From: an uncultured Pelagibacteraceae bacterium
GTDB lineage: Bacteria > Pseudomonadota > Alphaproteobacteria > Pelagibacterales > Pelagibacteraceae
DNA: 41,551 nt
Assembly: GCA_902568465.1 (NCBI GenBank)
Contig: CACFQR010000009.1
Span: 1 to 41,551, forward strand
Direction: 5' to 3'
Shown here piece after piece: positions 8,765 through 41,551 of the stretch. The notes under the pieces are model-generated. The model was not told the origin of the DNA. It saw only the letters and a list, made by a program, of their open reading frames with translations, and did no database searches. Position numbers and translations under genes: made by a program. How positions within the stretch are numbered: position 1 is the stretch's first letter; each line of letters starts with the position of its first letter.

Positions 8765-10365
8765 TAATTGTTTGCGGGAGCTTTTTCCTTGTATAGTTTG
8801 TAATCCAAGCTATCAATTAACGCTTTAAATGAAGCCTCGATAATATTTGGCGAAACACCGATTGTGAACCAGCTTTTGCCTTCGCTATCTGTGCTTTCAA
8901 TTGAGACTCTTGTTGTTGCATTCGTTCCTGTATTTAAAATTCTCACTTTATAGTCTACTAATTTTAAATCTTTTAAATATTTAGAATATTTACCAACCTT
9001 GTCTACGTTAGATCTTATTGCGTTATCTAAAGCGTTAACTGGACCATTTCCTGTACCTTCACAAACTATTTCTTTGCCATCAACCATGATGTGGGCTTTG
9101 GCATGCGAAACTATTTTATCTTTTGAGTCTTTTTTGACCGAGACATCATATTTAGAAATTGTTAAATATTTTGGTATCTCTCCTAAAAGCCTTCTAGCTA
9201 ATAATTCGAAAGAAGCGTCTGCTCCATCATATGAATAGCCAACAAACTCTCTATCCTTAACTTCATTTAATAATTTTTGAACTTTAGGATCATTTTTATC
9301 AATTTTAATTCCATATTTTTCTAGTCTAGACATAATATTTGATTTACCAGCTTGATCGGAAACAATAATATTTCTTTCGTTACCTACTAAAATAGGATCA
9401 ATATGTTCATAAGTTTTTGGATCTTTTGAAACTGCTGAAACGTGCAAGCCACCTTTATGTGCAAATGCAGAGGGCCCAACATATGCAGCTCGTCTATTTG
9501 ATTTTTTATTTAATATCTCGTCTAACAGCCTTGAACATTGAGTTAAAGTCTTAACTTTATCTTTATTTATTTTTATTTCAAATTTATCATTAAAAGTTTT
9601 TTTTAAAGTAAGAGATGGAATTAAAGATATTAAATTTGCATTTCCACATCTCTCACCCAAGCCATTTATAGTACCTTGAACTTGACGTACTCCTGCCAAA
9701 ACTGCAGTTAAAGAATTTGCAACCGCATTTTCTGTATCATTATGAGCGTGAATGCCAAGATTAATTCCGGGAATGTGTTTGGACACTTTTGAAACGATTT
9801 CTCCGACTTCATTAGGTAAAGTTCCTCCATTTGTATCACAAAGGACAATCCATCGTGCACCTTCATCAAAAGCTGTTTTAATGCAAGCTAGTGCGTACTC
9901 AGGATTTTTTTTATATCCATCAAAAAAATGTTCGGCATCGAACATAAATTCTCTTTTTTTTTTGATGAATAATTTTGCTGATTCTTTAATGTTTTCTAGA
10001 TTTTCCTCTTTTGTAATACCTAAGGCTACATCTACATGAAAATCCCATGATTTGCCCACTAAACAAATTGCAGGTGCATTTGTATTTAATAAAGCTGAAA
10101 GTCCTGGATCATTTTCAGCACTTCTCCCAGTTTTTTTTGTCATGCCAAAAGCTGTTAAAATTGTATTTGTAAGCTTTGGAGGTTTATTAAAGAAAGTTGT
10201 ATCTAAAGTGTTAGCTCCTGGCCAACCTCCCTCAATATAATCAACACCTAAAACTGATAAAGCTTTTGCTATTTTATTCTTGTCATCAATAGAAAAATTT
10301 ACACCTTCGGTTTGAGCGCCATCTCTAAGTGTAGTATCAAATATATATATCTTTTCTTTGCTCAT
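8764..10365 (-). CDS. cimA: (R)-citramalate synthase
   Basis: Condenses pyruvate and acetyl-CoA to citramalate, giving a threonine-independent route to 2-oxobutyrate and isoleucine. The 533 aa length fits CimA of the LeuA-like DRE-TIM metallolyase family. Visible motifs are DTTLRDGAQ (10-18), AEHFFDG (144-150), the metal-binding HAHND (206-210), and the GLGERCGNANL loop. A C-terminal allosteric domain (~400-525) is present. It could be mistaken for 2-isopropylmalate or homocitrate synthase, but length and the GAQTEGVNFS motif favour CimA. It overlaps cysS by 4 bp. Confidence 0.92.
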   Translation of the reverse strand: MSKEKIYIFDTTLRDGAQTEGVNFSIDDKNKIAKALSVLGVDYIEGGWPGANTLDTTFFNKPPKLTNTILTAFGMTKKTGRSAENDPGLSALLNTNAPAICLVGKSWDFHVDVALGITKEENLENIKESAKLFIKKKREFMFDAEHFFDGYKKNPEYALACIKTAFDEGARWIVLCDTNGGTLPNEVGEIVSKVSKHIPGINLGIHAHNDTENAVANSLTAVLAGVRQVQGTINGLGERCGNANLISLIPSLTLKKTFNDKFEIKINKDKVKTLTQCSRLLDEILNKKSNRRAAYVGPSAFAHKGGLHVSAVSKDPKTYEHIDPILVGNERNIIVSDQAGKSNIMSRLEKYGIKIDKNDPKVQKLLNEVKDREFVGYSYDGADASFELLARRLLGEIPKYLTISKYDVSVKKDSKDKIVSHAKAHIMVDGKEIVCEGTGNGPVNALDNAIRSNVDKVGKYSKYLKDLKLVDYKVRILNTGTNATTRVSIESTDSEGKSWFTIGVSPNIIEASFKALIDSLDYKLYKEKAPANN

Positions 10366-11717
10366 TTATATTTCCATATAGTTTTATCTTGTTTATCTTC
10401 AATAATCACATCATTATCTTCTAATTCTTTTCTCAAAGTATCTGCTAATTTATAGTCTCCTTTAACTCTTGCTTCATTTCTATCATTAATTTTTTTATTA
10501 ATAAAATTTTCATCTACTTTTGCTCTTGATTTCTTAAAGCTATCCCATGAATTTTTATCCTCGAGCAAGCCAATTAATTGACATGCAGACAAAAATTTTA
10601 GTTTTGAGGATTTATTACCTTTAGATGATTCTTCATAAAGTGAATGAAGTTTTGCAATATATTCAGGGGTATTTAAATCCTCTTGCAAAGGTTTTGTAAC
10701 ATCTTCTGTTAATTCCTTCTGATTAATTTTTTCAAATTGGTTATACCATTTATCTAAAGTACTCTGGCTTTCACTAATTAATTTTTCATTCCAATCAAGT
10801 GGTTGTTTATAGTGAGAGCTCAATAGTGCAAGTCTTATTACTTCACCATTTACGCTTTCTCTTAGTTTGCTAATAGTAACGATGTTTCCTATAGACTTAG
10901 ACATTTTCTCCTTATCAAAAGTAACAAATCCATTATGTAACCAATAATTTGCAAATTTATCTGTTTTATTAGCACAACAAGATTGTGCAATTTCATTCTC
11001 ATGGTGTGGAAAAACTAGGTCGAGACCACCTCCGTGTATATCGAACTGTTTGCCTAAATATTTTTCACTCATAACAGAACATTCTAAATGCCACCCTGGT
11101 CGTCCTCTACCCCAAGGAGATTCCCAGCCAGGATCTTTATCATCTGAAGGTTTCCAAAGAACAAAATCAAGAGGATCTTTTTTGTATTTAGAAATTTCTA
11201 CTCTTGACCCAGCAACAAGTTCTTCGGAGTTTTTATTAGATAGTTTTCCATATTTCTTAAAAGAAGATACTGAAAAGTACACATGATTTCCTTTTTCATA
11301 TGCATTTTCATTTTTTAACAAACTTGAAATCATTTCAATCATTCCCTTGATATTTTCTGTTGCTTTAGGTTCAAAGTTAGGTTTCAGGCAATTTAAATAT
11401 TTACAATCTTCATGAAAACTCTTAGTAATCGATTCTGTTAACTCTTTAATACTTTTTCCCTTTTTTTTAGAGGAATCTATAATTTTATCATCTATATCAG
11501 TAATATTTCTAACATAAGTAACATATTTTTTTCCGTAAAGACTTTGCAAGAGTCTAAATAAAACATCAAACACAACTAAAGGTCTTGCATTTCCAATATG
11601 TGGAAAATCATATACTGTTGGTCCACAGACATACATTCCAACTTTATTTTTATTTAAAGGAAAAAATTTTTCTTTTTTGTTCGATAGAGTATTAAAAAAA
11701 TTTAAGTTTTTAGTCAT
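10362..11717 (-). CDS. cysS: Cysteinyl-tRNA synthetase
   Basis: Class Ia aminoacyl-tRNA synthetase that charges tRNA-Cys. The 451 aa length is standard. The HIGH-type motif is PHIGNAR (39-45) and the KMSKS loop is at 271-275. Zinc ligands for cysteine recognition are visible: Cys31 (YVCGPT), Cys213 (HLECSVMS) and the histidines at 238-239 (FPHHENE). It overlaps nadE by 8 bp and cimA by 4 bp, so the four genes nadE-cysS-cimA-trmJ look co-transcribed. Confidence 0.98.
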   Translation of the reverse strand: MTKNLNFFNTLSNKKEKFFPLNKNKVGMYVCGPTVYDFPHIGNARPLVVFDVLFRLLQSLYGKKYVTYVRNITDIDDKIIDSSKKKGKSIKELTESITKSFHEDCKYLNCLKPNFEPKATENIKGMIEMISSLLKNENAYEKGNHVYFSVSSFKKYGKLSNKNSEELVAGSRVEISKYKKDPLDFVLWKPSDDKDPGWESPWGRGRPGWHLECSVMSEKYLGKQFDIHGGGLDLVFPHHENEIAQSCCANKTDKFANYWLHNGFVTFDKEKMSKSIGNIVTISKLRESVNGEVIRLALLSSHYKQPLDWNEKLISESQSTLDKWYNQFEKINQKELTEDVTKPLQEDLNTPEYIAKLHSLYEESSKGNKSSKLKFLSACQLIGLLEDKNSWDSFKKSRAKVDENFINKKINDRNEARVKGDYKLADTLRKELEDNDVIIEDKQDKTIWKYK

Positions 11718-33110: not shown

Positions 33111-33512
33111 ATGACTAACAAATCTAAAAAAATACTAACAGAAATATCACCTGGTGAATTGCTTGACAAAATAAGCATTTTAGAAATTAAAAGTGAAAAA
33201 ATTAAGGATAAAAATAATTTATTAGAAATTAGTAAGGAGTATAAAATCTTAAAAAATGCTGAACAAACAAACATTATTAAAAATACTGAAATTGAAAATT
33301 TATGTAAAATGCTTAAAGAGGTAAATTTAAATTTATGGAATACGGAAGACCAAATAAGAATATGTGAAAAAAATAAAGATTTTAGTAAAAAATTTATTGA
33401 TTTAGCTAGAAACGTTTACCTCAAAAATGATACCAGAGCTAAAATTAAATCTGATATAAACAAAATTTTAGGTTCTCACATTAAAGAAATAAAAGAATAT
33501 ATTAAGTATTAA
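33111..33512 (+). CDS. DUF6165 family protein
   Basis: A 133 aa soluble, highly charged, mostly helical protein. The N-terminus (ILTEISPGELLDKISILEIKSEKI) matches my memory of the DUF6165 family, followed by predicted coiled-coil-like segments and a conserved LNLWNTEDQIRICEK stretch. No catalytic motif, signal peptide or membrane helix is seen. Its neighbours are glycosyltransferases, as is common for this family, so a role in surface glycan assembly can be guessed. The stop overlaps the converging permease gene by 4 bp. Confidence 0.78.
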   Translation: MTNKSKKILTEISPGELLDKISILEIKSEKIKDKNNLLEISKEYKILKNAEQTNIIKNTEIENLCKMLKEVNLNLWNTEDQIRICEKNKDFSKKFIDLARNVYLKNDTRAKIKSDINKILGSHIKEIKEYIKY

Positions 33513-34183
33513 GTATAGTTATATTTCTTTTCTAAAAGTTTTATTACATTGTGTATTACAAATGTCATTAATAAATATATACTTCCAGCTACAATAAATA
33601 CCTCTACTGGTCTAAAAGTTGTTGAAATAATATGCTTCGCTACACCAGTAAGATCAAGCAAAGTAACTGTGCTAGCTAAAGAAGTGCCTTTCAACATTAA
33701 TATCATTTCATTTCCATAAGCTGGTAAAGACTGTCTTATTGCTATAGGCAATTTAATCTTAAAAAATGTGTTTAATTTGCTTAAACCTAATCCTTCTGCA
33801 GCTTCTATGATTCCTTTATTTATTGTCTCAAAAGCGGATCTAAATATTTCTGAAGAATAAGCTCCAGTATTTAAAGTAAATGCTAGAATTGCGCATGAAT
33901 AAGGTTCTTTTAAAAAAACCCAAAGAAAAGATTCTCTAATCCACTCTAGTTGGGCAAGACCAAAATATATAATAAAAATTTGAACTAGTAATGGAGTTCC
34001 CCTAAAAATATATGAATAATAGTAAGATATATAATAAAGAACTTTGCTATTACCTGTTCTTAAAATAGCGAAAAAAACTCCTACAAATATACCAAAGAAA
34101 AGTGATAAAAGTGTTAATTCAATAGTTAATTTTGCTGCTTTCAATAACCGCGGTAAATGTTCTATTGCAAAATCTAAATCCAT
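33509..34183 (-). CDS. Polar amino-acid ABC transporter permease (HisM/ArtM type)
   Basis: A 224 aa inner-membrane permease with about five hydrophobic segments. It shows the polar amino-acid family's N-terminal pattern (LPRLLKAAKLTIELTLLSLFFGIFVG), IFRGTPLLVQIFIIYFG, and the EAA loop EAAEGLGLSKLNTFFKIKLP (~138-157) that contacts the ATPase. It starts directly after the stop of the other permease gene and would pair with it as a heterodimer. No ATPase gene follows; the next gene converges. Confidence 0.93.
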   Translation of the reverse strand: MDLDFAIEHLPRLLKAAKLTIELTLLSLFFGIFVGVFFAILRTGNSKVLYYISYYYSYIFRGTPLLVQIFIIYFGLAQLEWIRESFLWVFLKEPYSCAILAFTLNTGAYSSEIFRSAFETINKGIIEAAEGLGLSKLNTFFKIKLPIAIRQSLPAYGNEMILMLKGTSLASTVTLLDLTGVAKHIISTTFRPVEVFIVAGSIYLLMTFVIHNVIKLLEKKYNYT

Positions 34184-34876
34184 CTAATACCCCTTGCTAT
34201 AATTTTTTTCTAGCCTATTAAACATTTTCAAACTAAGAAAAGTTAGAAGCAAATATAAAACAGCAGCAAAGGAGTAAAAAAATAAAGGATCCCTTGTTGA
34301 GCCTGCTGCTATATAGGATTGCCTCATAATTTCCACTAGTCCAGTAACCGAAATCAACGATGTATCTTTTAAAGTTATTTGCCAAACATTACTTATATTT
34401 GGTAGTGCCAATCTTAACATCTGGGGTATTATTATTTTGTAATAGTAAATTTTCTTTTTAAATCCCAAAACTTCAGAAGCTTCGAATTGACCTTTGTCAA
34501 TTGATTGTACCGCTCCTCTAAATACTTCAGTTGAATATGCTCCTGAAATTATTCCTATAGAAAAAGCTCCTGTTAAAAAGGCATTTACTTCAATATAACC
34601 ATCATACCCAAATATTCTAGCTACATACATAACAGCACCACTGCCACCAAAAAAAAATAAATAAATTACTAAAAGTTCTGGAACACCTCTAAAAACAGTA
34701 GTGTAAAAACCTCCGATTAAATTTAATATTTTGTTTTTTGATAATTTAAATGATGCAAAAATTGCAGCTAAAAAGAACCCTATAAACATAGCCGCTAAGG
34801 CAACTGCTATTGTCATAAGAGTTGCAAAAAAAAGTTCGTCTCCCCAACCCGTATCTCCGTAAGCTAAAAGTCCCAT
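34184..34876 (-). CDS. Polar amino-acid ABC transporter permease (HisQ/ArtQ type)
   Basis: A 230 aa inner-membrane permease of the histidine/arginine/octopine family. Visible are an N-terminal helix with ATLMTIAVALAAMFIGFFLA, VFRGVPELLVIYLFFFG and the EAA loop EASEVLGFKKKIYYYKIIIP (~132-151). A charged C-terminus ends LEKNYSKGY. The ATG lies 4 nt after a strong hairpin that occupies the place of the ribosome-binding site, so its translation may be set low relative to the binding protein. Confidence 0.93.
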   Translation of the reverse strand: MGLLAYGDTGWGDELFFATLMTIAVALAAMFIGFFLAAIFASFKLSKNKILNLIGGFYTTVFRGVPELLVIYLFFFGGSGAVMYVARIFGYDGYIEVNAFLTGAFSIGIISGAYSTEVFRGAVQSIDKGQFEASEVLGFKKKIYYYKIIIPQMLRLALPNISNVWQITLKDTSLISVTGLVEIMRQSYIAAGSTRDPLFFYSFAAVLYLLLTFLSLKMFNRLEKNYSKGY

Positions 34877-34879
34877 AGA

Positions 34880-34914
34880 TTTTAAGGCGATAGTATTAAT
34901 CTATCGCCTTAAAA
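34880..34914 (-). promoter_or_regulatory. Perfect stem-loop between binding-protein and permease genes
   Basis: Two 14-nt arms (TTTTAAGGCGATAG at 34880-34893 and its exact complement at 34901-34914) pair perfectly around a 7-nt loop. In the minus-strand mRNA the hairpin starts 9 nt after the binding-protein stop and ends 3 nt before the HisQ-type ATG, covering the whole ribosome-binding region. No U-run follows, so it is more likely an mRNA stabiliser or translation/attenuation element than a simple terminator. Such hairpins give binding-protein excess in other ABC operons. Confidence 0.7.
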
Positions 34915-34923
34915 ATTAAATTA

Positions 34924-35754
34924 TTACATAGAAGCGTCAAAACCAAACCACTTAATGGCTAGTTCACTAATTTTACCATTTTTTCTTGCTTGGTTAATAG
35001 CCGCATTGAATTTTTTTAGAAGTGCTGCGTCGTCTTTTCTAATTCCGACACCTACTCCATTACCAAATGCTCCTCCAGAAAAGGTTGGACCAACAAGAAC
35101 AACTGGTTTTCCAGATTTTTCTGCATAATCAGTAAAAGCAACAGCTGCTGCTAATGCAGCATCTATTCTTCCTGCAGCTAAATCTAAATTTACTTCATCT
35201 TGAGTTTTGTAAGTTCTAATTTTTACACTACCTACATCTCCAGACTCTAAAAAGTTTTGGTGAATGGTTGCTGTTTGCACACCAATAGTTTTTCCAGCTA
35301 ATGCAGCTGTTAAAGTTTTCAGAGCTTTTTTCGCAGCTCCTCCACCAGTAGATAAATTTATAGCTTTAGGTGTATCCATACCTTCAAGAGATGAACCTTT
35401 CATAACTGCCAAAGAAGCAACTTCATCAGCGTAGCCTTGTGAGAAATTAATTGTTTTCATTCTCTCATCGGTAATTGACATTCCAGCCATAATAGCATCG
35501 TACTTTCTCATTATCAGTCCTGGAATCATTCCATCCCAATCCTGCTCAACTAAAGTACAGTCAGCCTTCATATAAATACAAAGCCAATTAGCAAGCTCAA
35601 CTTCAAATCCAATTAACTTTCCAGATTCGTCTTTTGCATTCCATGGTGGGTAAGCACCTTCTGTTCCTATTCTTATACTATCTGCTTTAACACTTGAAAA
35701 AAGTATCATTAACGCAGCTATAGAAGATAGAAATAATTTAAATTTATTTTTCAT
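34924..35754 (-). CDS. Periplasmic amino-acid-binding protein of an ABC importer (LAO/octopine type)
   Basis: A 276 aa secreted solute-binding protein. The signal peptide is at residues 1-24 (MKNKFK, then a hydrophobic LFLSSIAALMILFSS core, and cleavage after VKA). The mature protein starts with IRIGTEGAYPPWNAKDESGKLIGFEVELA, typical of lysine/arginine/ornithine and octopine/nopaline binding proteins, and has the CIYMKADC cysteine pair and AIMAGMSITDERMKTINFS. Basic amino acids or derivatives are likely but not proven. A strong Shine-Dalgarno (AAGGGGGA) precedes the ATG. Confidence 0.93.
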   Translation of the reverse strand: MKNKFKLFLSSIAALMILFSSVKADSIRIGTEGAYPPWNAKDESGKLIGFEVELANWLCIYMKADCTLVEQDWDGMIPGLIMRKYDAIMAGMSITDERMKTINFSQGYADEVASLAVMKGSSLEGMDTPKAINLSTGGGAAKKALKTLTAALAGKTIGVQTATIHQNFLESGDVGSVKIRTYKTQDEVNLDLAAGRIDAALAAAVAFTDYAEKSGKPVVLVGPTFSGGAFGNGVGVGIRKDDAALLKKFNAAINQARKNGKISELAIKWFGFDASM

Positions 35755-35844: not shown

Positions 35845-36888
35845 TTAAGAATTCATTATAGAAGAGGCGAAATTCCAACGACAATCGAAGCTTGGTATCA
35901 TTGCTTCATCCAATTTAGAGTTACCAAAATTATCTGAAAGGACTTTTATCCAGTTATTCACTTGTTTTGGTTTTTTAGATAAAGTTCCAACTTGTGCTGT
36001 AATCACTCCTCCTGGTTTAAGAATTCTTTTTAGGCCTTTCATATTCTTTGCTGCTAAATCTATGCAAAATTGATCGTCATTAAGATCTACAAAAATTTTA
36101 TCATATTTTGAATCTTTAACTTTTTTAATGCTTTCAAATGCATCTCCCCAAAATGTCTTTACGTTGTTGTTAGCTTTTACATCACCACAAATTTTAGGTA
36201 AATGTTTTTGGCAAACCTTCACAACTTCTGGATCAAGTTCGTACCAATCAACTAAATCAAATCCTTTTGACAATAATTCTCTTGCAACACCACCATCCCC
36301 GCCACCAATTATGGCTGCGCTAGAATTGTCTTTAGATAAACTTAGAGCAGAATTAACAAATTGTCCGCTATATTTTTTTTCATCCTTTTCTGCAACTTGC
36401 AATTCACTATCTATAAACAAAGCGTTACCAAATTCTTCAAGTTTCATTATTTCAATATGTTGACCTACTTTCGAAACAAAATTTTCTAATACATCATTAA
36501 CGATATAATATTTTTGGTGACCTGGTGAGCTGTATATATCTTCATATAAACCTTTGTTACTTCTATCAAAACTCCTAACGACGGCTCTTTCATGTTTAAT
36601 TTCGCCTTTTAATATATCTAAAGCTGTTGTTGGGGATATTTTCCCACATGTAAAGAAGTCAAAACTAATTACACCTCTTTCAGGAAATGTATGAAAGCTC
36701 ATATGACTTTCTGCTAAAAGAGCTACGCAGGTATACCCTTGAGGTTTAAATACCTTTTCAGAGATATTTAACACCTCAATTCTCGCCTTTTTAGCTATTT
36801 TGTATATAACTTTATTGTAAAAATCAGGAGTGTAATCCTTTTTTACTCCTAAAAAATCTATTGTTACGTGTTCTCCAACTTTTTTCAT
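35845..36888 (-). CDS. Fused S-adenosylmethionine decarboxylase-spermidine synthase (SpeD-SpeE)
   Basis: A 347 aa fusion. Residues ~1-115 are a pyruvoyl-type AdoMet decarboxylase: the self-cleavage site is Glu60-Ser61 in LLAESHMSFHTFPE, with processing residues His66 and Cys81 (FFTCG) in place. Residues ~116-347 are an aminopropyltransferase: GHQKYYIVND, FIDSELQVAEKDE, the GGGDGGVARELL loop (195-206), YELDPE (216-221), GDAFESIK (248-255) and VDLNDD (267-272). Together they would make decarboxylated AdoMet and pass its aminopropyl group to a diamine, releasing MTA. The usual DE..YHE block is changed to DEKKYSG, so amine preference may differ. Confidence 0.92.
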   Translation of the reverse strand: MKKVGEHVTIDFLGVKKDYTPDFYNKVIYKIAKKARIEVLNISEKVFKPQGYTCVALLAESHMSFHTFPERGVISFDFFTCGKISPTTALDILKGEIKHERAVVRSFDRSNKGLYEDIYSSPGHQKYYIVNDVLENFVSKVGQHIEIMKLEEFGNALFIDSELQVAEKDEKKYSGQFVNSALSLSKDNSSAAIIGGGDGGVARELLSKGFDLVDWYELDPEVVKVCQKHLPKICGDVKANNNVKTFWGDAFESIKKVKDSKYDKIFVDLNDDQFCIDLAAKNMKGLKRILKPGGVITAQVGTLSKKPKQVNNWIKVLSDNFGNSKLDEAMIPSFDCRWNFASSIMNS

Positions 36889-36997
36889 TTTTTAACGACT
36901 CTCTACAATTTTTTTAACTTGTTATTTTATTTTTTACAACTAAAAATTAGTTTGAAATAAGTAAAAATTAGATGTGAATAAGTTAAAGGAGTTCTAA
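36889..36997. other. Divergent spacer between the speD-speE fusion and the aldolase-SDR gene
   Basis: 109 bp, very AT-rich. It holds a short inverted repeat, AACTAA/TTAGTT (36938-36943 and 36947-36952) with a 3-nt spacer, which may be an operator, and a good Shine-Dalgarno AAAGGAG (36985-36991) that supports the GTG start of the aldolase gene. I looked for a SAM-responsive riboswitch in front of the speD half and saw no convincing fold. Confidence 0.45.
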
Positions 36998-39031
36998 GTG
37001 AAAAATAATTGGTCAAAAAAAAATGCAAAAAAATATATAAAAAAGTACAAAAACCTTGGTTTTTCTGCTGATTTGGCACTTAGAGTATATACGACTCGTC
37101 TTTTAGGCAGAAATAAAGAATTGGTTTTACATGGAGGAGGAAATACTTCTGTTAAAACTACAATTAAAGACTTAGATGGGAAAAAATATAAAGTCTTGTG
37201 TGTAAAAGGCAGCGGTTGGGATATGGCAGACATTGAGCCGCCTGGCCTTCCTGCGGTAAAACTCGAACCACTGCTGGCTCTAAAAAATAAAAAATACTTA
37301 TCCGATGAAGATATGGTTGCATACCAAAAAAGAAATTTAATAGACATTAAATCTCCAAATCCTTCTGTAGAAACTTTTTTACATGCTTTCCTTCCATTTA
37401 AATATGTAGATCATACGCATGCTGATGCTGTTCTTAATATAACTAATAGACCAGGTGGATTAAATTTATCTAAAAAAATATTTGGAAATAAAGTTAGCAT
37501 AGTCCCTTATGTTATGCCTGGTTTTATGTTGGCTAAAAAAATACATGAAGTTTATACAAATAATCCGAATATTAATTGCTTAATATTAATGAATCATGGA
37601 ATTTTTACATTCGCAAACGATTGTAAAGAAGCATACGATTTAATGATTAAGTATGTATCAAAGGCAGAAAAAGCTATAAAAAAACTTAAAAGCAAAAAAA
37701 TTAAACAAATTAAAAATTTTTCAACCAAATTTAATCCTCACGATATTGCTCCAATAATTAGAGGATTGCTGTCAGAAAACAAAGATCAAAAATTTATTAT
37801 AAATTATAGATTAAATAATAATTTAAAATATTTTATAAATGGAAAAAATGTAAGATCTTACTCAAGAAAGGGAACTGCCACACCTGACCATGTAATAAGG
37901 GTAAAACCATTTCCTTTAATAATTACTCCTAAAAAAAATTCTACTATTAAAGAATTTGAAATAACAGCAAGAAAAGCTTTTGAAAATTATAGAAAAAAAT
38001 ACATTCAATATTTTAAAGTTAACCACAAAAAAGTTTCAGAAAAAAAAGTGATGTTAGATACATCTCCAAGAGTTATATTAATTCAAAATGTAGGGATGTT
38101 TAGCGTAGGCAAAGATTTAAGTGGTGCAAAAATTGCTGGAGATTTAACAGAAACGAACGCTAAAGTAATTTCTTCTGTCGAAGAAACTTCTACTTATAAA
38201 TTTATTCCTGAAAAAGACCTTTTTGATGTTGAGTATTGGTCTCTCGAACAAGCAAAAATTAAGAAAAAGAAAAAATTGCTAGAAGGACATGTTGTGGTCA
38301 TTACGGGAAGCACCGGAACAATAGGGTTTGAAACTTACAAAATGTTCAAAAGTTATGGTGCAGAAGTTATTTTGCTTGATAATAATTTAAAAAGTTTGGG
38401 CTTAGTTAAATCTCAAATTAAAGATCTTTGTATTCATTGTGATGTTACTAATAAAAAAAGTGTAAAGAAAGCTTTTAAAGAAATATGTGAAAAATTCGGT
38501 GGTATTGATATTTTAATTTCAAATGCTGGAACTGCTCCTGGTGGAGCTATAGGAGATGTAAGTGACGATGTTTTAAGAAAAAGTTTTGAAATTAATTTCT
38601 TTGCTCACCAGAACTGTGCTTCTGAAGCAATTAGTATAATGAGGAAGCAGAATATTAACGGATGTCTTCTTTTTAATATTTCAAAACAATCTGTTAATCC
38701 TGGAAAAAATTTTGGTCCTTATGGTTTACCAAAATCTGCTTTGTTGAGCTTATGTAAGCAATATGCTGTAGATTATGGTTCTTATGGGATTAGATCTAAT
38801 GGTGTGAACGCTGACAGAATAAGAAGCGGCATGATGACTGATCAAATGATTAAGAATAGAGCAAAGGCAAGAGCAGTAACTACTAATGATTATATGAAAG
38901 GCAACTTGTTATTAAACGAAGTAAAGGCAGAAGATGTTGCAAAAGCTTTTTTTCATCTAGCAGTATCTAAAAAAACTACAGGAGCCGTCCTTAGTGTCGA
39001 TGGTGGAAATATAGCCGCTTCTTTAAGATAA
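36998..39031 (+). CDS. Bifunctional class II aldolase / short-chain dehydrogenase fusion
   Basis: A 677 aa fusion in the family annotated as rhamnulose-1-phosphate aldolase/alcohol dehydrogenase. The aldolase half (~1-400) has the phosphate-binding HGGGNTSVK (45-53), catalytic Glu125 and metal ligands His139, His141 and His200 (VDHTHAD, MNHGIF). The SDR half (~428-677) has the cofactor loop GSTGTIG (437-443), NAG (509-511) and the triad Ser562, Tyr575, Lys579 (YGLPK). GTG start with AAAGGAG 6 bp upstream. No rhamnose or fucose gene is nearby; the neighbours make MTA and methylthioribulose-1-phosphate, which I propose as its source of substrate. Confidence 0.88.
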   Translation: MKNNWSKKNAKKYIKKYKNLGFSADLALRVYTTRLLGRNKELVLHGGGNTSVKTTIKDLDGKKYKVLCVKGSGWDMADIEPPGLPAVKLEPLLALKNKKYLSDEDMVAYQKRNLIDIKSPNPSVETFLHAFLPFKYVDHTHADAVLNITNRPGGLNLSKKIFGNKVSIVPYVMPGFMLAKKIHEVYTNNPNINCLILMNHGIFTFANDCKEAYDLMIKYVSKAEKAIKKLKSKKIKQIKNFSTKFNPHDIAPIIRGLLSENKDQKFIINYRLNNNLKYFINGKNVRSYSRKGTATPDHVIRVKPFPLIITPKKNSTIKEFEITARKAFENYRKKYIQYFKVNHKKVSEKKVMLDTSPRVILIQNVGMFSVGKDLSGAKIAGDLTETNAKVISSVEETSTYKFIPEKDLFDVEYWSLEQAKIKKKKKLLEGHVVVITGSTGTIGFETYKMFKSYGAEVILLDNNLKSLGLVKSQIKDLCIHCDVTNKKSVKKAFKEICEKFGGIDILISNAGTAPGGAIGDVSDDVLRKSFEINFFAHQNCASEAISIMRKQNINGCLLFNISKQSVNPGKNFGPYGLPKSALLSLCKQYAVDYGSYGIRSNGVNADRIRSGMMTDQMIKNRAKARAVTTNDYMKGNLLLNEVKAEDVAKAFFHLAVSKKTTGAVLSVDGGNIAASLR

Positions 39032-39039
39032 AAAAATAA

Positions 39040-39243
39040 TTATTTTTCTAGTTCTTTTTTAATTTCTTGTTCACAAAATTTTCTTGCTTTTTTTGCATCA
39101 AATGTTTTAGACTTTTTTTTTTGACCTAATATGCATGCTGAAACTGACTTTTCAAAGTTATATTCGCTAAAATTTGTTTTAATAAAATAAATAAGGATTA
39201 TAGTAATTAAAATAAAAATTACTTTGGAAATATTTTTTTTCAT
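39040..39243 (-). CDS. Small single-span membrane protein, unknown function
   Basis: A 67 aa protein not recognised as any family. It has one hydrophobic helix (~8-22, ISKVIFILITIILIYFI) after a lysine-rich start. A 45-residue charged tail follows, with Cys37 and Cys57 and a basic/acidic C-terminal helix. The 4-bp ATGA overlap with mtnA, as for the other gene pairs of this operon, supports that it is real and translationally coupled. If the tail faces the periplasm, the cysteines could form a disulfide. Confidence 0.6.
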   Translation of the reverse strand: MKKNISKVIFILITIILIYFIKTNFSEYNFEKSVSACILGQKKKSKTFDAKKARKFCEQEIKKELEK

Positions 39244-40316
39244 TTAAAAAGTTTTTTTAACCCTTCCTCAGATGCTTGACAAATACCTTTTTCTGTAATT
39301 AAACCAGTAATATATTTAGCAGGCGTTACATCAAAAGCTAAATTCATTGCTTTGCTTTTTTGTGGGTAAATTAATACTTTTATTATCTTTTTATCTTTAT
39401 CTAAACCTTCGACATGAGTTAATTCCTCCGAATTTCTTTCTTCAATGGGAATATCTTTATAATCCTTTATATTCCAATCTATCGTTGAGCTTGGCAACGC
39501 TACATAAAAAGGAACATTATTATCATGGGCTGCCAATGCCTTTAAATAAGTTCCAATTTTATTGCAAACATCTCCAGTAGATAAAGTTCTGTCAGTTCCA
39601 ACAATGCACATATCCACTTCACCTCTTTGCATTAATATTCCGCCAGTATTATCAGCGATAATTGTATTAGGAATTTTTTCTTCATTAAGCTCGTATGAAG
39701 TTAAATTAGCACCTTGATTTCTTGGTCTTGTCTCATCAACCCAGACATGAACGGGGATTCCTTTTTTATGTGCGTGGTAAATTGGAGATGTTGCGGTGCC
39801 CCAATTGATTGTAGCAAGCCAGCCAGCGTTACAATGAGTTAAGATATTTACTTTATCTTTCTTCTTTTTATAAATTTCTTCTATAATTTTTAATCCATTT
39901 AATCCGATATTTTCACAAAACTTAACATCCTCTTCACAAATTGTTTTTGCTTCATCCAAAGCTACTTTTAATATTTCGTTATTATTAACTCCTGACAGTT
40001 TTTTCATCATTCTGTCTACAGCCCACTTCAAATTAATAGCTGTTGGTCTTGATTGAATTAGATCCTCAGAGCTTTTTTTAATAAAGTTAGGATCATTTTT
40101 CTCCATAATAGCTAAAACAATACCGTAAGCTGCGGTTCCTCCAATTAATGGGGCCCCCCTAACCTCCATAACTTTGATGGCATTAATTGCGTCTTTTACT
40201 GTTTTAAGATCTTTAATTATAAATTGATGAGGTAGTTTTGTTTGATCAATAATTTTTACTGCTTGATTTTTTTCATCAAACCAAATTGTACGATATTCTT
40301 TTCCTTCAATTTTCAT
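39240..40316 (-). CDS. mtnA: Methylthioribose-1-phosphate isomerase
   Basis: Isomerises 5-methylthioribose-1-phosphate to methylthioribulose-1-phosphate. The 358 aa length is that of MtnA, of the eIF2B-like fold. Motifs are RGAPLIGGTAAYG (53-65), HCNAGWLAT with catalytic Cys162, DETRPRNQGANLTSYEL (194-210) and IVGTDRT with catalytic Asp242, then GDVCNKIGTY. The usual GADRI is here GTDRT. It overlaps the GFA-type gene and the small membrane protein gene by 4 bp each, and its substrate is made by MtnP two genes upstream. Confidence 0.95.
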   Translation of the reverse strand: MKIEGKEYRTIWFDEKNQAVKIIDQTKLPHQFIIKDLKTVKDAINAIKVMEVRGAPLIGGTAAYGIVLAIMEKNDPNFIKKSSEDLIQSRPTAINLKWAVDRMMKKLSGVNNNEILKVALDEAKTICEEDVKFCENIGLNGLKIIEEIYKKKKDKVNILTHCNAGWLATINWGTATSPIYHAHKKGIPVHVWVDETRPRNQGANLTSYELNEEKIPNTIIADNTGGILMQRGEVDMCIVGTDRTLSTGDVCNKIGTYLKALAAHDNNVPFYVALPSSTIDWNIKDYKDIPIEERNSEELTHVEGLDKDKKIIKVLIYPQKSKAMNLAFDVTPAKYITGLITEKGICQASEEGLKKLFK

Positions 40317-40720
40317 TGTTTGCTATACCTGCTAAATTTTGGAATATTTTTATCTAAAGAATAATATTTAAGTTTATTTTTTGTAAAAATATTTCTATTT
40401 GTTTTAAGCTTTAGTGATTTATCAAATAAACCTGCAGAAATACTTATTATGTTTGATTTATTCATTTTGAATAAGATGCTGGCGCCACACTTTTTACAAA
40501 AGCCTCTTTGTGCTTTTTTTGATGATTTAAACCACTTTAATGTTCTTTTGGTTATAAATTTTACATTTATGTCTTTTAATGCAGTGTACGCTGCAAAATT
40601 ACCATGTGTTTTCATGCATTGAATACAATGACAGTTAGATACTTGTCGATGAAAACCTTTTGTTTTAAACTTTACACCTCCACACAAACAACTTCCTTTA
40701 GAGCTTAATTTTTTTTTCAT
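40313..40720 (-). CDS. GFA family (CENP-V/glutathione-dependent formaldehyde-activating-like) zinc protein
   Basis: A 135 aa protein with the zinc-binding cysteines of the GFA/Mss4-like fold: CLCGGVKF (11-18), SNCHCIQC (28-35) and GFCKKCGASILF (73-84). The founding member was linked to glutathione-formaldehyde adducts, but that role is disputed and most members are uncharacterised. Here it lies between mtnP and mtnA with 4-bp overlaps on both sides, which suggests a job tied to MTA salvage, perhaps aldehyde or thiol handling. That job is inference. Confidence 0.85.
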   Translation of the reverse strand: MKKKLSSKGSCLCGGVKFKTKGFHRQVSNCHCIQCMKTHGNFAAYTALKDINVKFITKRTLKWFKSSKKAQRGFCKKCGASILFKMNKSNIISISAGLFDKSLKLKTNRNIFTKNKLKYYSLDKNIPKFSRYSKQ

Positions 40721-41551
40721 TTATTTAATACTCTTCCTGCTACTGTTTTTAATTTATCTTTTGTTTTTTGAGTTCTTTTTTCAGGAGCTGTTATAATTGC
40801 TACATCTAAACAGTTGTTTGTAGGATCTTTAGGGTCAATATATTTTTCAAAATTATCTATAAGATTTTTAATCATGCTTTTTGCTTTTGCGGCATTTCCT
40901 AAGAGAACTTTTATTACTTGTTGAACATCAACATTTTCATGATCTGGATGCCAACAATCATAGTCAGTTACCATTGAAACTGATGCATATCTAATTTCTG
41001 CTTCTCTAGCTAATTTTGCCTCAGGCATATTAGTCATTCCAATCACATCTGCTTTCCATGATCTATATAAGTTTGACTCTGCTAATGTTGAAAATTGAGG
41101 TCCTTCCATGACAACATAGGTTCCTCCTTTTTGATAATCAATATTTTCTTTTTTTATTGCTTCTTCACATGCTTTCATTAAACCATTTGATGTTGGGTGA
41201 GCCATTGACACATGAGCGACTATCTCATCATCAAAAAATGTTTTGTTCCTCGCAAAAGTTCTGTCAATAAATTGATCTACGATCACAAACTTCCCTGGAG
41301 GTAAATTTTCTTTTAATGAACCTACGGCAGAAACAGAAACAATGTCTGTTACTCCTGCTTGTTTGAGAGCATCTATATTTGCTCTAAAATTTATTTTTGA
41401 AGGCGATATAAAATGACCTCTTCCATGTCTAGGTAAAAAGCAAACTTCTTTTCCATTATACTTAATTTTTAGAATTTCATCTGAAGGTTGTCCCCAAGGA
41501 GTACTGATCATCAAAAATTCACGTTCTTTAAACTCTTCAACGTCATAGAGG
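40717..41551 (-). CDS. mtnP: S-methyl-5'-thioadenosine phosphorylase (5' end beyond the window)
   Basis: Phosphorolyses MTA to adenine and methylthioribose-1-phosphate. The reading frame runs open to the right edge (LYDVEEFKEREFLMISTPWGQPSDE), and this stretch aligns with residues ~20-45 of MTA phosphorylases, so the first ~20 residues lie outside the window. Motifs are the RHGRGHFISPSKINFRANI phosphate-binding block, SAVGSL, VDQFIDRT, the VMEGPQFSTLAES substrate loop and MVTDYDCW. The C-terminal ~35 residues are lineage-specific. It is the first gene of the operon seen here and overlaps the GFA gene by 4 bp. Confidence 0.95.
   Translation of the reverse strand, partial: LYDVEEFKEREFLMISTPWGQPSDEILKIKYNGKEVCFLPRHGRGHFISPSKINFRANIDALKQAGVTDIVSVSAVGSLKENLPPGKFVIVDQFIDRTFARNKTFFDDEIVAHVSMAHPTSNGLMKACEEAIKKENIDYQKGGTYVVMEGPQFSTLAESNLYRSWKADVIGMTNMPEAKLAREAEIRYASVSMVTDYDCWHPDHENVDVQQVIKVLLGNAAKAKSMIKNLIDNFEKYIDPKDPTNNCLDVAIITAPEKRTQKTKDKLKTVAGRVLNK

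Follow-up and report, generated by a model that had tools for sequence, protein, structure and literature searches.

The SpeD-SpeE fusion of SAR11 bacteria has been assayed in two strains. In a 2024 paper, the fusions of HTCC1062 and HTCC7211 restored spermidine in an E. coli strain deleted for speD; in one deleted for speE they produced spermine and thermospermine, and they formed norspermidine when 1,3-diaminopropane was added (PMC11107197). A passage of PMC8437039 cites Green et al. (2011) for the SAR11 fusion. The second system of interest is the DHAP shunt (MtnP, MtnA and Ald2) of R. rubrum and R. palustris, of which a variant with MtnK is found in E. coli (PMC5893883, PMC10986504). In R. 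palustris, Ald2 yields 2-(methylthio)acetaldehyde, and an unidentified alcohol dehydrogenase then reduces this product (PMC5893883). The third is RhaEW, which splits rhamnulose-1-phosphate and uses NAD+ to oxidise lactaldehyde; its genes were reported to stand in rha loci in every case (PMC3870299).

Here we analysed a window of 41,551 bp, which is the whole of contig C9 of a SAR11 (Pelagibacteraceae) genome (1.01 Mb, 80% complete). The window carries a SpeD-SpeE fusion gene (speDE) next to genes for the disposal of S-methyl-5'-thioadenosine (MTA). The assayed orthologues of HTCC1062 and HTCC7211, the family motifs and a published diamine cluster indicate that this fusion is already known for SAR11. 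The newer part is the neighbourhood, where a fusion of an aldolase and a short-chain dehydrogenase (aldolase/SDR) probably recycles the sulfur by-product of polyamine synthesis.

The SpeD-SpeE fusion protein and its orthologues

The earlier note on this DNA had described a SpeD-SpeE fusion in one reading frame, in which AdoMet decarboxylation and aminopropyl transfer are coupled. We found a single ORF on the minus strand, starting with ATG and encoding 347 aa, whereas stops abound on the plus strand of the same interval, and both the domains and the curated models bore out the fusion. The coupling was in agreement with the orthologues, which were active as AdoMet decarboxylase in vivo (PMC11107197). 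The gene and its parts are as follows:

35845..36888, minus strand: speDE, fusion of AdoMet decarboxylase (class 1b) and aminopropyltransferase, 347 aa; assigned by its domains and its identity to the assayed HTCC1062 and HTCC7211 fusions
36538..36888, minus strand: SpeD domain, approximately aa 1-117; PF02675 and TIGR03330 above cut-offs, PDB 2iii and 1tlu
36706..36711, minus strand: Glu60-Ser61 self-cleavage site, Ser61 being the predicted pyruvoyl residue; 1tlu alignment, invariant in 118 orthologues
35848..36537, minus strand: aminopropyltransferase (SpeE) domain, approximately aa 118-347; PF01564, PF17284, PDB spermidine synthases and predicted fold
36289..36306, minus strand: GGGDGG dcAdoMet-binding loop, aa 195-200; G195, G196, G197, D198 and G200 invariant, G199 replaced by Ala in 3 of 118
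36073..36087, minus strand: DLNDD at the position of the canonical DS(S/T)DP, aa 268-272; none of the five residues varies among 118 SAR11 orthologues, the assayed ones included

In Pfam, AdoMet_dc (PF02675) matched aa 7-109 (3.6e-23; 82.4 against a cut-off of 25), Spermine_synth (PF01564) matched aa 171-338 (1.9e-23; 83.4 against a cut-off of 22.9) and Spermine_synt_N (PF17284) was matched as well. The NCBIfam model SAM_DCase_Bsu (TIGR03330) scored 89.0, above its cut-off of 75.65. The SpeE equivalog models gave strong scores that were yet below their cut-offs (TIGR00417, 101 against 249.55; NF002010, 122 against 260), indicating that the SpeE half has diverged, and the protein was therefore filed under the SAR11 fusion family instead of canonical SpeE. 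For the same reason, its predicted product specificity was taken from the orthologues at 64-67% identity. Over 344 aa, the window protein was 67% identical to the HTCC1062 fusion (SpeD 61%, SpeE 70%) and 64% identical to that of HTCC7211; we took the two reference genomes of this comparison to be those of Ca. P. ubique HTCC1062 and Pelagibacter sp. HTCC7211.

The residues and motifs that had been named before (Glu60-Ser61, His66, Cys81, GGGDGG, YELD at aa 216-219, DEKKYSG at aa 169-175 and DLNDD) proved correct in the 1tlu alignment and among the 118 distinct orthologues. In that alignment, Glu60-Ser61 coincides with the cleavage site of the T. maritima enzyme (1tlu), and Ser61, His66 and Cys81 occupy the places of its serine, histidine and cysteine. 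The conservation shows these positions to be under selection. Invariant residues in the orthologues were E60, S61, H66, C81, Q143, Y173, S174, D198, E217, D249, D268, D271 and Q299, among which Q143, D198, E217, D249, D268, D271 and Q299 correspond to dcAdoMet-binding or catalytic residues of spermidine synthases. The AlphaFold model (pLDDT 81.4, pTM 0.64) displayed the expected folds, with limited confidence in the relative placement of the domains. When it was compared to the PDB, human spermine synthase was the best full-length match (E 6e-23, rmsd about 12.7 over the full length), followed by spermidine synthases covering the C-terminal part.

The changes in the YSG and DLNDD motifs had also been read as hints of a changed amine substrate. 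The tested members of the family are indeed broad in amine specificity, and the hint holds in this weak sense. However, the changes are not specific to this gene: the HTCC1062 and HTCC7211 fusions carry YSS and DLNDD, and a substrate change peculiar to the window gene was rejected because both motifs are family-wide in the 118 orthologues, where most sequences have Ser or Gly at position 175. DLNDD keeps both aspartates of DxxD, the sole change being from proline to Asp. The GGGDGG motif agrees with the Spm type defined in PMC11107197. In the same paper, Spm and Tspm synthases gave no N1-aminopropylagmatine except in named species, with Pelagibacter not among them, and from these results agmatine is an unlikely amine substrate of speDE.

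Fusions of this kind had been called known but uncommon. The first half stands, while the second needs context: the fusion is standard in SAR11, and of 29 Pelagibacteraceae genomes that are near-complete, 28 have an orthologue. In the genome collection, the candidate stretches that could be confirmed numbered at least 480, and the best 80 of these were retained. The contigs of relatives are labelled Pelagibacteraceae, Ca. Pelagibacter or Pelagibacterales (SAR11), plus one single-cell genome labelled "Alpha proteobacterium". A phage origin was rejected: no close relative was found on viral contigs, the SpeD proteins of named phages were less than 60% identical and, among the matches listed, none was annotated as a fusion.

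Neighbouring genes and the aldolase/SDR protein

The region on the other side of the start of speDE, up to the contig end, contains the following:

36889..36997, no strand: intergenic region of 109 bp common to the divergent speDE and aldolase/SDR genes; read directly
36998..39031, plus strand: aldolase/short-chain dehydrogenase fusion, 677 aa, proposed 5-methylthioribulose-1-phosphate aldolase and aldehyde dehydrogenase; NF006192, 885.8 against 639
39240..40316, minus strand: mtnA, S-methyl-5-thioribose-1-phosphate isomerase; TIGR00512, 420 against a cut-off of 279
40313..40720, minus strand: GFA-family protein in the mtnP/mtnA interval; PF04828, 1.5e-18, present here in only 2 of the compared loci
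40717..41514, minus strand: mtnP, S-methyl-5'-thioadenosine phosphorylase, truncated at its 5' end where the contig stops; TIGR01694, 285.6 against 274.85

The TIGR01694 match begins at profile position 28, with about 25 N-terminal residues missing; they were cut off by the contig end, and the TTG start is thus an artefact. An Rfam scan of the entire window returned no match, hence none in the interval between speDE and aldolase/SDR, and a riboswitch upstream of speDE was rejected on this basis. Directly downstream of speDE (33509-35754, minus strand) lies an ABC transporter of the lysine/arginine/ornithine type, consisting of a binding protein and two permeases; many other SAR11 loci have a carbon-nitrogen hydrolase in its place. 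For SAR11 binding proteins resembling this one, our literature search found no paper on the substrate.

We compared 87 distinct SAR11 loci and found three MTA-disposal modules adjoining speDE, exactly one of them at each locus: mtnP-mtnA with a stand-alone class II aldolase (61 loci), mtnP-mtnA with aldolase/SDR (23 loci, the window included) and a nucleosidase-like gene (3 loci). mtnA was present in 59 of the 61 loci with the stand-alone aldolase and in 22 of the 23 with aldolase/SDR; in the remainder it was not found within the stretch covered. The apt gene (adenine salvage) is usually next. A match to fucA-like models was seen for the stand-alone aldolase, which was taken as putatively Ald2-type. 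The picture from 60 whole genomes, many of them incomplete, was similar: 24 had aldolase/SDR, 6 had the stand-alone aldolase and none had both, distant hits of about 30% identity aside. No Ald2 homologue was found at 1e-10 in the 80% complete genome of the window.

The nucleosidase-like genes (174-178 aa) adjoin speDE at 10320-10844 in locus L170, 8953-9480 in L179 and 10538-11074 in L172. Those of L170 and L179 were below the NCBIfam cut-offs, and no mtnP-mtnA was found at the speDE-adjoining place of the three loci, whose genomes are presumably those of HTCC1062, HIMB5 and IMCC9063. In several SAR11 loci, including L177 (12613-12951) and L178 (7029-7367), mtnA is separated from aldolase/SDR by the gene of a small multidrug resistance-type transporter, near the place of the GFA-family gene in the window; this transporter may export a compound formed in the breakdown of MTA.

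The aldolase/SDR protein falls into NF006192 (PRK08324.1-6), a family annotated without a substrate. Its zinc-binding histidines are conserved, as are the catalytic glutamate and the YxxxK of the SDR domain. Of 385 Alphaproteobacteria sampled, 70 carry aldolase/SDR; mtnA occurred in 66 of these 70 genomes compared to 115 of the 315 others (Fisher P = 2e-20, shared ancestry being ignored). In 28 of the 54 genomes for which mtnA coordinates were compared, the two genes were within 2 kb of each other and on the same strand, except for the window pair. Some members unlinked to mtnA scored equally high on the same model, indicating that mtnA linkage does not split the family into two subfamilies.

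The protein could be an ordinary sugar enzyme, for rhamnulose-1-phosphate (RhaEW-type) or another substrate, and stand beside mtnA and speDE by chance. In fact, RhaEW is the nearest assayed relative (PMC3870299), and related models bear annotation names that suggest a rhamnulose-1-phosphate aldolase. However, the score of the window protein on TIGR02632 (rhamnulose type) was 445.4, below the cut-off of 567.75. Furthermore, neither RhaA nor a rhizobial-type rhamnose isomerase was found in 36 relatives including the window's own genome, and a role in rhamnose use was rejected on this ground. The protein was never found together with Ald2 in the 87 loci or the 60 genomes, and it tracks mtnA across the class. 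A sugar enzyme placed here by chance was therefore regarded as unlikely.

We consider it fairly probable that in many Alphaproteobacteria NF006192 serves as the aldolase of MTA salvage, with a second domain that oxidises or reduces the aldehyde, and that it replaces Ald2 in SAR11. It would cleave 5-methylthioribulose-1-phosphate (or 5-deoxyribulose-1-phosphate) to DHAP and (methylthio)acetaldehyde. We infer that both steps, the aldolase reaction and the aldehyde conversion, are performed in one protein; with the aldehyde handled by the second domain, this reactive compound need not be released. The SAR11 locus would then be a compact one, in which spermidine is made and its sulfur by-product recycled. 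As far as is known, SAR11 cells depend on reduced sulfur compounds. If true, the proposal would assign a role to a protein family that 70 of the 385 sampled genomes carry, and would explain how the methylthio group left by polyamine synthesis is handled in some SAR11 cells. A full-text literature search, which covered subscription papers incompletely, found no report of aldolase/SDR in MTA salvage.

Diamine source and direction of the reaction

The earlier note held the diamine source to be unclear and proposed a genome search for diamine genes. This search answered the point: another contig of the same genome (C1) carries, side by side on the same strand, an agmatinase (TIGR01230, 211.5 against 174.3), a deoxyhypusine-synthase homologue (NF002699, 580 against 500) and a 392-aa ODC-like decarboxylase, whose only NCBIfam match was lysA, far below the cut-off. 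In the Ca. P. ubique cluster of matching order, the ODC-like protein is an arginine decarboxylase (PMC9992855), and from the cluster order and this published homologue the gene on C1 can be read as a putative arginine decarboxylase. The name of NF002699 refers to the agmatine-homocoupling product known from Thermus (PMC10981699), by which some agmatine may go to homospermidine. One genome of the same family (G026; single contig, 99% complete) has two ODC/lysA-type genes and a deoxyhypusine-synthase homologue, and neither speDE nor mtnA was found in it; this SAR11 relative may make homospermidine only.

It was proposed for SAR11 that the transferase works mostly in reverse in the cell and degrades imported spermidine and norspermidine, for SAR11 cultures use spermidine without a known dehydrogenase and a reversible SpeE was suggested (PMC8437039). 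However, SpeE reversal is not known elsewhere according to the same paper, and in the window the fused decarboxylase supplies the forward substrate while the adjoining genes remove MTA. The forward direction is thus favoured, and a mainly reversed transferase appears quite improbable. Still less credible is a SpeD half shifted to arginine or ornithine decarboxylation and supplying agmatine or putrescine to its own transferase: such shifts, seen in some homologues of pelagiphages, bacteria and archaea, are widespread (PMC10407285) and a SAR11-infecting phage carries a shifted SpeD (PMC9992855), but TIGR03330 (AdoMet decarboxylase) was above its cut-off, and we rejected the shift because two orthologous fusions with identical catalytic residues restored spermidine in the speD deletion and a separate ODC-like gene and agmatinase can supply the diamine.

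The speDE product is very probably the SAR11 SpeD-SpeE fusion that makes spermidine, spermine, thermospermine and MTA from dcAdoMet. The proenzyme would cleave itself at Glu60/Ser61 and convert Ser61 to the pyruvoyl group; provided that Ser61 is processed, the pyruvoyl group would head the C-terminal chain that also carries the transferase, as had been foreseen. The pyruvoyl domain would decarboxylate AdoMet, and dcAdoMet may be passed from one site of the protein to the other. The transferase would move the aminopropyl group to putrescine and next to spermidine, giving spermidine, spermine, thermospermine and MTA. Putrescine would come from arginine via the ODC-like decarboxylase (published as an arginine decarboxylase) and the agmatinase encoded elsewhere in the genome, and MTA would be taken over by the proteins that the neighbouring mtnP, mtnA and aldolase/SDR genes encode. 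Since assayed orthologues exist for the speDE of this abundant ocean group, no new mechanism is needed.

Comparison with known systems

The fusions of HTCC1062 (WP_011282223) and HTCC7211 (WP_008544956), which were assayed in PMC11107197, have the same architecture, catalytic residues, DExxYS, DLNDD and GGGDGG as the window protein, and their gene neighbours are partly common to it. The upstream gene is nucleosidase-like in HTCC1062; HTCC7211 has mtnP-mtnA-Ald2, and the window has mtnP-GFA-mtnA with the divergent aldolase/SDR. Human spermine synthase (3c6k/3c6m) likewise consists of a SpeD-like N-terminal domain and an aminopropyltransferase domain. However, its N-terminal domain has lost AdoMet decarboxylase activity, whereas the window protein keeps Ser61, His66 and Cys81. 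Animal spermine synthase is thought to descend from a bacterial fusion of this architecture. As close bacterial fusions, the paper on the animal enzyme chose one deltaproteobacterial and one of Krumholzibacteria, and Pelagibacter is not named in its text.

The aldolase/SDR protein resembles RhaEW in its domain order and in the zinc-ligand and SDR YxxxK residues. It differs in standing in an mtn/spe locus, and in falling short of the TIGR02632 (RhaD_aldol-ADH) cut-off, and no rhamnose isomerase was found in the 36 genomes. In common with the DHAP shunt, mtnP and mtnA (both above cut-offs) stand beside speDE, and most SAR11 loci have the Ald2-type class II aldolase as well. In contrast, the window and 22 other SAR11 loci have the two-domain aldolase/SDR on the opposite strand in place of a stand-alone Ald2, and for this reason we describe the locus as one that works like the known DHAP shunt rather than one that is identical to it.
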